NCBI GenBank assembly: GCA_024642525.1
Contig: JAHEAX010000002.1
Location: 1 to 64,000 of the forward strand
Reading direction: 5' to 3'
Length of the DNA: 64,000 bases
Origin: Erythrobacteraceae bacterium
GTDB lineage: Bacteria > Pseudomonadota > Alphaproteobacteria > Sphingomonadales > Sphingomonadaceae
A program made the position numbers and the translations under genes. This document shows, in pieces, positions 25,208-39,753 of this stretch. Below the pieces are notes generated by a model that was not told where the DNA came from, searched no databases, and worked only from the letters and a program-made list of their open reading frames with translations. The stretch's first letter is position 1. Every line of letters begins with the position of its first letter.

Positions 25208-27517
25208 ATGGCCACTACCGACATTGAAAAATCCGATTCCGACCCTGCCGATTCCATCGTCAATGAATCCTTCGATTCCGCCTTGTCGGAACGGTATCTT
25301 GTCTATGCGATGTCCACGATCACGGCGCGTTCGCTGCCTGATCTGCGCGATGGGCTGAAGCCGGTTCACCGCCGCCTGTTGTGGGCGATGCGGCAATTGA
25401 AGCTGGCGCCGACCGATGCATTCAAGAAATCGGCGCGCGTGGTGGGCGATGTCATCGGCAAATATCACCCGCATGGCGATGCCTCTGTCTATGATGCGAT
25501 GGTCCGCCTGGCGCAGAGTTTTGCGCTGCGTTATCCGCTGGTCGAAGGGCAGGGCAATTTCGGCAATATCGACGGCGATAATGCCGCTGCCTATCGCTAC
25601 ACCGAAGCACGCCTGACCAAGACGGCCATCACCCTGATGCAGGGCCTGGATGAAGGTACGGTCGACTTCATTCCTACCTATAATGGCGAGGAAGAAGAGC
25701 CGGAGATTTTCCCCGGCATCTTTCCCAATCTGCTGGCCAATGGCGCCAGCGGTATCGCCGTGGGCATGGCGACATCGATACCGAGCCACAATGTCGCCGA
25801 AGTCATCGATGCGACGCTGGAACTGATCGATAACCCCCATGTCGAACATGCCCGGTTGATGGAACTGTTCCACGGGCCCGACTTTGCCACCGGCGGGCTG
25901 GTGGTGGACAGCGCAGACGCCATTTCCCACGCCTATGAAACGGGGCGCGGGTCGTTCCGTGTCAGGGGCAGGTTCCATGCTGCAGAAGCGGAAAACGAAG
26001 CAGACCGTGATGCGGGTATCGAACGCCTTGGTGGCGGACAGTGGCAGCTGGTCATCAGCGAAATCCCCTACATGGTCCAGAAGGGCAAGTTGATTGAACA
26101 GATCGCCCAGGCAATTGCGGACAAGAAGCTGCCCATCCTCGAAGACGTGCGCGACGAAAGTGACGAAGCAATTCGCATCGTGCTGGTGCCGCGCAGCCGC
26201 AATGTCGATCCTGAACTGCTGAAGGAATCGATTTACAAGCTGACCGACCTGGAAAACCGTTTCGGCCTCAATTTGAACGTGCTGGATGCGACCCGCACTC
26301 CGATGGTGATGGGGCTGAAGGAATTGCTGGGCAACTGGCTCACCAGCCAGATCGACATTCTTCAGCGGCGCACGCAGCACCGGTTGGAAAAGATTGCCGC
26401 ACGTCTCGAACTGCTCGAAGGCTATATCATCGCCTTCCTCAATCTTGACCGCGTTATCGAGATTATCCGGACAGAAGACGAGCCCAAGCCCGTGATGATG
26501 GCCGAATTCAGCCTGACTGACCGTCAGACCGAAGCCATCCTGAACATGCGCCTGCGGTCTTTGCGCAAGCTGGAAGAAATGCAGCTGCGCAATGAACACG
26601 ACGAGTTGATCAAGGAGCAGGGCGAGCTTGAGACGCTGCTGGCTTCGCCTGCCCGCCAGCGCACACGGATCAAGCGTGATCTGACGGCCTTGCGCAAGGA
26701 ATATAGCGAGGAAACCGCGATCGGTGCGCGGCGCACGACCATTGCAGAAGCGTCCCCTACGGTCGAATTTTCGATGGATGCGATGATCGAGAAGGAACCG
26801 GTGACCGTAATCCTGTCAGCCAAGGGCTGGATCAGGGCAGCGCGCGGCCATGTTGACCTCGGGCCAGATGGCAAGGGCGCTGACTTCAAGTTCAAGGAAG
26901 GCGATGGCCCGGCGTTCGCTCTTCATGCGCAGACGACTGACAAGCTGCTGATTGCGGTGGATACGGGCCGCTTCTACACCATCGGCTGTGACAAGCTGCC
27001 GGGTGCACGCGGCTTTGGTGAACCGATCCGCAACATGCTGGATATAGAGGCGGAGGCCAATATTGCCGGGCTGGTGTTGCACCGGCCCAAGGGCCAGTTG
27101 CTGCTTGCCGCGACGACCGGAAAGGGCTTTGCTGCCGAAACTGACGAGATTTTGGCAGAAACCCGAAAGGGGCGGCAGGTCGTCAACCTCAAGGGCGACA
27201 ACAAGCTGGTCGTGGTCCGCGAAATTTCTGCTGAACATGACCACGTGGCCGTGGTGGGTGACAACCGCAAACTGGTTATCTTCAGCCTTGAAGAATTGCC
27301 GATACTGGGCCGCGGGCAGGGCGTAACCTTGCAGCGTTACCGCGATGGCGGCCTGTCTGATGCGACCACCTTCACGCTTGAAGATGGCCTAAGCTGGGCA
27401 ATGGGCGGCGACAGCGGTCGCACGCGCACGGAAAAGGACGTGTGGCAGTGGAAAGTGGCGCGCGGCGCAGCGGGCCGCTTGCCGCCGCAAGGCTTCCCGC
27501 GCGACAACAGGTTCTAG
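25208..27517 (+). CDS. parC: DNA topoisomerase IV subunit A
   Basis: LSERYLVYAMSTITARSLPDLRDGLKPVHRRLLWAM, KYHPHGDASVYDAMVRLAQ, EARLTKTA (active-site Tyr region). Confidence 0.97.
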   Translation: MATTDIEKSDSDPADSIVNESFDSALSERYLVYAMSTITARSLPDLRDGLKPVHRRLLWAMRQLKLAPTDAFKKSARVVGDVIGKYHPHGDASVYDAMVRLAQSFALRYPLVEGQGNFGNIDGDNAAAYRYTEARLTKTAITLMQGLDEGTVDFIPTYNGEEEEPEIFPGIFPNLLANGASGIAVGMATSIPSHNVAEVIDATLELIDNPHVEHARLMELFHGPDFATGGLVVDSADAISHAYETGRGSFRVRGRFHAAEAENEADRDAGIERLGGGQWQLVISEIPYMVQKGKLIEQIAQAIADKKLPILEDVRDESDEAIRIVLVPRSRNVDPELLKESIYKLTDLENRFGLNLNVLDATRTPMVMGLKELLGNWLTSQIDILQRRTQHRLEKIAARLELLEGYIIAFLNLDRVIEIIRTEDEPKPVMMAEFSLTDRQTEAILNMRLRSLRKLEEMQLRNEHDELIKEQGELETLLASPARQRTRIKRDLTALRKEYSEETAIGARRTTIAEASPTVEFSMDAMIEKEPVTVILSAKGWIRAARGHVDLGPDGKGADFKFKEGDGPAFALHAQTTDKLLIAVDTGRFYTIGCDKLPGARGFGEPIRNMLDIEAEANIAGLVLHRPKGQLLLAATTGKGFAAETDEILAETRKGRQVVNLKGDNKLVVVREISAEHDHVAVVGDNRKLVIFSLEELPILGRGQGVTLQRYRDGGLSDATTFTLEDGLSWAMGGDSGRTRTEKDVWQWKVARGAAGRLPPQGFPRDNRF

Positions 27518-29877: not shown

Positions 29878-30131
29878 AAATTACTTTCAGCATGCGCCAT
29901 GCGGACTCCGGAAAAACCGGGAGTCCGGGCGCAGAATTTGGGTCTGCGACCCAAGCGTGAAAAGGGAAGCTTAGCGAATAACGCTTGCCGTAGGTCGGGT
30001 GCCGGACTTCTGCCTTTTTGTGTGGCGAAGTTCACGCTCGCAGCCGATTGCGCATAGTCGTTATGCGCCGGACGTTGCGGGCCATGTAGTGCGACTTGTG
30101 TGAATAAGCAATGAAATTACGCTGGCCTTGG

Positions 30132-38418: not shown

Positions 38419-38570
38419 GAGTCCTTCGCGCCACACCCCAAGATGGCGAGTCTGGTGAACCACAGCAGACTCAACATCTTGTGGGGGACTCTTTTCGTTC
38501 TCCCTTAATTGAGCGGGCGTTAACTATATTCGTCCATCATTCCTGCTTGACGTGGAGTCCGCGAGGACTC
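38419..38570. promoter_or_regulatory. Cluster of six GANTC (CcrM-type methylation) sites upstream of the ccrM-like gene
   Basis: GANTC at 38419, 38448, 38468, 38487, 38555, 38566; the last two form GAGTCC-GCGA-GGACTC inverted repeat. Confidence 0.8.
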
Positions 38571-38583
38571 ACCCTGTGGATAA

Positions 38584-39753
<1,170 letters not shown>

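Follow-up and report, generated by a model that had tools for sequence, protein, structure and literature searches.

Why should six copies of GANTC lie within 152 bp directly upstream of a gene for a GANTC adenine methyltransferase? In Alphaproteobacteria CcrM marks how far replication has advanced, and the regulators known to control it are CtrA, GcrA and DnaA. The window, by which we mean the whole 64,000-nucleotide stretch of DNA that was analyzed, carries a ccrM gene at 38599-39753 (forward strand, 384 aa), and all six sites were found where the first-pass annotation had placed them: GAGTC at 38419 and 38448, GACTC at 38468 and 38487, GAGTC at 38555 and GACTC at 38566. The assignment of the gene as CcrM-type was supported by the NCBIfam CcrM model (E 1.3e-184, residues 32-376 aligned), yet its score of 613 bits is below the curated equivalog cut-off of 830. 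The named ccrM loci most similar to ours are those of Erythrobacter and Altererythrobacter. GANTC is avoided in the window, since 64 sites were observed where dinucleotide shuffles predicted 230. With the 64-kb window as the background, six sites in 152 bp is the maximum density, and 1 of 20000 random placements of 64 sites matched it. Two other places in the window were seen to hold closely set sites. Four of them (GATTC, GATTC, GAATC, GATTC) fall within 44 bp at 25235-25278, inside coding sequence at the 5' end of 25208-27517, which resembles a gene for DNA topoisomerase IV subunit A. A hairpin at 29904-29925, GGACTCCGGAAAAACCGGGAGTCC, has GACTC and GAGTC, one per arm.

The GANTC sites are conserved across the ccrM loci of the family, Sphingomonadaceae (including Erythrobacteraceae), and the upstream regions of these relatives split the six into two units. 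One is a rigid element of 73 bp (38419-38491, forward strand) made up of sites 1-4, with start-to-start spacings of 29, 20 and 19 bp; the other is a promoter, to which sites 5 and 6 belong. Among 106 family loci, GAGTC was present at site 1 (38419-38423) in 96 and at site 2 (38448-38452) in 79, GACTC was present at site 3 (38468-38472) in 93, and site 4 (38487-38491) was found in 52. When the element was searched for as GANTC-24-GANTC-15-GANTC-14-GANTC, with any middle base permitted, 105 of the 401 family genomes were found to hold exactly one copy each, and our own genome a single copy; the reversed control pattern had no match in the 401. The middle bases were fixed, and all 420 sites in the 105 sequences read GAGTC, GAGTC, GACTC and GACTC in that order. 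A sequence-only model of the element matched 76 of the 80 named Sphingomonadaceae/Erythrobacteraceae ccrM loci, and its strong whole-genome matches were at ccrM only. The element is upstream of ccrM throughout the family and accompanies ccrM even in relatives that have a different gene upstream. An inverted repeat at 38436-38484 encloses sites 2 and 3. Two candidate explanations were rejected along the way. One forward frame of the element is open in 98 of the 105 sequences, but base preference is nearly absent from the 15-bp loop, and the element was not taken as coding sequence. The idea that CWCAANATNTTGWG, as a single palindrome, defines a regulon was dropped as well: its remaining matches are scattered, many of them within reading frames, and the second match in our own genome seems to lie within one.

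NrdR is a repressor that monitors the supply of DNA precursors by sensing dATP and ATP. The boxes to which it binds have the consensus acaCwAtATaTwGtg and occur in pairs separated by a whole number of helix turns (PMC4009431). NrdR depends on a pair of boxes set about three turns from each other and carrying conserved GC pairs at a 9-bp interval (PMC9110341), and it accepts spacers of 14-17 bp (PMC12051234). Two NrdR-box-like palindromes are present on the forward strand of the element, CCCCAAGATGGCGAGT at 38436-38451 (diagnostic C 38439 and G 38448) and ACTCAACATCTTGTGG at 38469-38484 (diagnostic C 38472 and G 38481). Box 1 alone is a weak match, with 9 of 16 consensus positions, and box 2 has 12 of 16. 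The consensus forms of the two arms are the quasi-palindromes CACAAGATATTGAG and CTCAATATCTTGTG, with centres 33 bp apart, and the 33-bp spacing in our genome corresponds to a spacer of 17, inside the tolerated range. The C-G pairs are 9 bp apart in both boxes (C21/G30 and C54/G63 in element positions), and C21 and G63, which were free in the search pattern, are invariant in 105 of 105 sequences. Site 2 contains the diagnostic G of box 1 and site 3 the diagnostic C of box 2. This pair is the sole one scoring at least 21 in the window, and when the upstream region was shuffled 3000 times its score was reached twice. Judged from the DNA, it is probable that 38436-38484 serves ccrM as a paired NrdR operator and that, in Sphingomonadaceae, CcrM's own sites have been built into it.

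Another possible explanation, which we consider unlikely, is that a different factor recognizes a palindrome resembling the NrdR box and that the fixed GANTCs make up a methylation-sensing operator for that factor. GYMACACC is strongly conserved directly to the left of box 1 (window 38430-38438, element positions 12-20) and is outside the NrdR consensus. This motif and sites 1 and 4, which lie outside the boxes, are left over by the NrdR reading and not explained by it, and such conservation beyond the consensus would suit a different factor. The element is also specific to ccrM, whereas NrdR normally serves reductase genes. In contrast, GC pairs 9 bp apart in two boxes at a spacing of 31-33 bp are a hallmark of NrdR. 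The 450 bp upstream of ccrM were scored against the published consensus, with C4 and G13 required and a spacing of 31-33, and the best pair was compared with shuffles. A pair at p<=0.05 was found in 107 of 118 Sphingomonadaceae loci and in all 22 loci of other Sphingomonadales. It was also found in 29 of 70 other alphaproteobacterial loci, where 3.5 were expected (binomial 1e-19), a class-level set whose sequences had partly been seen before the consensus test: the NrdR idea first arose from reading ccrM upstream regions of other orders, and the published consensus was applied afterwards. No outstanding pair was found in the 450 bp upstream of the other 41 of these 70. The score peaked at a spacing of 33 in Sphingomonadaceae, 32 in other Sphingomonadales and 31 in other Alphaproteobacteria, and in the two groups for which palindromes were permuted, 0 of 60 permutations gave a mean as high as the observed one. 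The spacing peaks and the permutation test both favor an NrdR box over the site of a different factor.

The distribution of nrdR bears on the same choice. Our genome encodes NrdR, and the protein retains D15, R17, R26-29 and R37, which have been named as its DNA-contact residues (PMC9110341). Among 37 family genomes, nrdR was not found in G011 and G025 (both 99% complete) or in G024 (85% complete). The element has been lost from G011 and G025, which retain the TTGAC-GANTC promoter. Co-loss of nrdR and the element gave a Fisher p of 0.016 without G024 and 0.042 with it, on the basis of two losses, and argues against a different factor. Three nrdR-bearing family genomes without the element (G016, G019 and G030) point the other way. 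Similar pairs are present in reductase promoters of the same genomes, which again favors NrdR; they were seen in 14 of 35 reductase upstream regions from 37 related genomes, own nrdA included, with control regions chosen crudely and containing coding sequence. At the level of single loci, the paired boxes upstream of ccrM have been lost and the GANTC promoter retained in L014, L112 (Citromicrobium) and L018; the genomes of L014 and L018 are G011 and G025, where no nrdR was found. In the upstream region of our own nrdA (L260, about 1123-1175), GATTC runs into box 1 of the NrdR-like pair, and the same arrangement was seen in L259, L263 and L264.

The first-pass annotation had read the six sites as a strengthened methylation-sensing autoregulatory switch or a binding site for a GcrA/SciP-like factor. 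The sites are indeed not due to chance, are conserved and look regulatory, but they do not form one six-site methylation-sensor array, and NrdR had been overlooked. That the element is a GANTC array recognized by GcrA or CcrM itself, with the palindromes incidental, is very unlikely. The fixed middle base of sites 1-4 could be taken in its favor, but the particular G/G/C/C set and the 14-bp arms exceed what GANTC recognition involves. In 98 of 98 high-scoring family pairs, the diagnostic G13 of box 1 or C4 of box 2 is also a base of a GANTC; outside the family, such overlap was found in 1 of 21 pairs from other Sphingomonadales and 7 of 23 elsewhere. Because the boxes of other Sphingomonadales are nearly free of GANTC, the boxes look older than their methylation sites, and the arms, not the GANTCs, appear to be the older constraint. 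In those other families box 1 lies within the 3' rnhB codons for Asn-Ala-Gly-Tyr-Gly. There, GGATATGG is fixed in 22 of 22 loci, compared to 1 of 53 in Sphingomonadaceae and 7 of 51 in the wider class. Constraint of this kind at synonymous positions is consistent with selection on the site.

For sites 5 and 6, the GANTC-array reading may still hold. They lie in the spacer of a promoter-like sequence at 38547-38570 (forward strand), in which TTGACG at 38547 is -35-like and the layout is TTGACG-N2-GAGTC-N6-GACTC, directly before a DnaA box. The palindrome GAGTCC-GCGA-GGACTC that had been reported for these two sites is present at 38555-38570, ending 28 bp from the ATG at 38599. No good -10 consensus was found at 38547-38570, and a simple scan for a sigma-70 consensus promoter found none. 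TTGAC with a GANTC close behind is widely conserved (101 of 118 family loci, 21 of 22 in other Sphingomonadales and 44 of 70 in other Alphaproteobacteria), and the middle base of these promoter GANTCs is variable. The two features looked for in a GcrA-dependent promoter, a GANTC within a TTGAC promoter and a gcrA gene in the genome, are both present here. By its sequence the TTGAC-GANTC-GANTC promoter is a separate part that is probably GcrA-activated. The GcrA-type reading fits only sites 5 and 6. Sites 2 and 3 are merged with paired palindromes, an operator for which NrdR is the best match. A perfect DnaA box, TTATCCACA, follows at 38575-38583 on the reverse strand and is the sole perfect match in the window. 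In the relatives L001-L014 a perfect DnaA box likewise separates the GANTC promoter from the start of ccrM, and 52 of 118 family loci have one at most 80 bp from that start, compared to 0 of 117 in a coding-region control stretch. The DnaA box, TTGACG at 38547, the inverted repeat at 38436-38484 and the spacing of sites 1-4 are all features that the first-pass annotation did not contain. A CtrA-like TTAACCA was seen between the element and the promoter in 49 of 118 family loci and in 1 of 117 control stretches.

That the element is an RNA hairpin (a terminator, leader or small RNA) is hardly credible: it lies upstream of the promoter and follows ccrM despite the change of upstream gene, no terminator-like site was found in a scan of the region, there is no Rfam match here, and the long-arm columns of the 105 sequences pair no more than base composition predicts. 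Our own sequence does fold strongly (z -3.98 over 196 nt), and its hairpin pair counts are greater than in every column shuffle and every slid version, but the excess comes mostly from three loop-flanking pairs. RNAalifold retained the GANTC pairs and two further pairs only, with 0 compensatory; along the arms, the search for compensatory base changes yielded nothing beyond that small excess beside the loop. Since the long arms are without covariation, this is a DNA element and not an RNA. Repair of imperfect palindromes could cause the pairing excess.

The position of the box pair relative to the promoter was also compared across loci. Our pair ends 62 bp upstream of the -35, and in the family TTGAC mostly follows box 2 at a distance of 61-64 and otherwise at 51-52 or 72-74, in steps of about 10.5 bp, or one helix turn. 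The distance is 93-96 in other Sphingomonadales, and the commonest value elsewhere is 37. These one-turn steps suggest that the element acts on the promoter from a fixed helical face.

If the element is a paired NrdR operator, it could work as follows. When precursors are plentiful and replication is slowing, NrdR loaded with dATP and ATP would bind both boxes as a tetramer. Once in place, this tetramer would impose a sharp bend on the DNA and repress the ccrM promoter, which begins 62 bp further downstream on a constant face of the helix. A drop in dATP during replication would then release NrdR, allowing ccrM and ribonucleotide reductase to be expressed at the same time. Each box in Sphingomonadaceae appears to have acquired a GANTC site at its inner edge, where methylation by CcrM would mark the edge of each box and could change NrdR binding. 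The CcrM marks, or the half-marked state after passage of the fork, might in this way provide feedback; alternatively, NrdR could shield the GANTC sites. With the inner sites inside the NrdR-like pair, ccrM may be switched both by the supply of nucleotides and by the methylation that its product lays down. We infer the binding of NrdR, repression as the direction of its action and every effect of methylation from the arrangement of the sites.

Two observations do not sit easily with the NrdR reading. The boxes are further upstream of the -35 than usual, and NrdR often overlaps the RNA polymerase site. In addition, anoxia reduces ccrM 7-fold in Sphingopyxis granuli (PMC6472365), a response that a model of simple release at low dATP does not anticipate. 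A broader proposal, which we make only tentatively and would not expect to hold in full, is that NrdR control of ccrM is an old alphaproteobacterial circuit, tying the supply of precursors to the epigenetic clock of the cell cycle, and that Sphingomonadaceae fused the operator with GANTC, so that NrdR binding and methylation gate each other in a combined sensor of nucleotides and replication forks. A paired NrdR operator at ccrM would, if true, directly link deoxynucleotide pools to the timing of DNA methylation. The arrangement would be unusual as well, in that the target sequence of a methyltransferase would form part of a nucleotide sensor's operator. No paper covered by our literature search connects NrdR and ccrM in this way; the search did not extend to the NrdR regulon paper of 2005 or to the RegPrecise site tables, and an earlier prediction is possible. 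A Caulobacter nrdR deletion mutant exists (PMC12186491).

The locus can be compared with several known systems. Caulobacter promoters of the GcrA/CcrM type (mipZ, ftsZ, ctrA P1) share TTGAC with a GANTC near or in the spacer and the presence of GcrA and CcrM, but the likeness is one of sequence and covers sites 5 and 6 only. The Caulobacter ccrM promoter is CtrA-activated and has GANTC in the leader; it resembles the family loci in combining ccrM with GANTC sites, and 49 of the 118 have the CtrA-like TTAACCA. MucR in Caulobacter shields GANTCs from CcrM and leaves hypomethylated sites (PMC5172544). The idea of a DNA-binding protein covering GANTCs against CcrM is the same, but the protein and the targets are different, and shielding at the ccrM operator is only possible. 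The closest likeness is to the NrdR box pairs of Streptomyces coelicolor nrdRJ and nrdAB and of Escherichia coli nrdHIEF, nrdDG and nrdAB, with two palindromes of the same consensus, the same GC pairs and about three helix turns between them. Unlike those pairs in reductase promoters, the element at ccrM targets a DNA methyltransferase gene, its boxes are well upstream of the promoter, and they carry GANTC fused to their inner edges.
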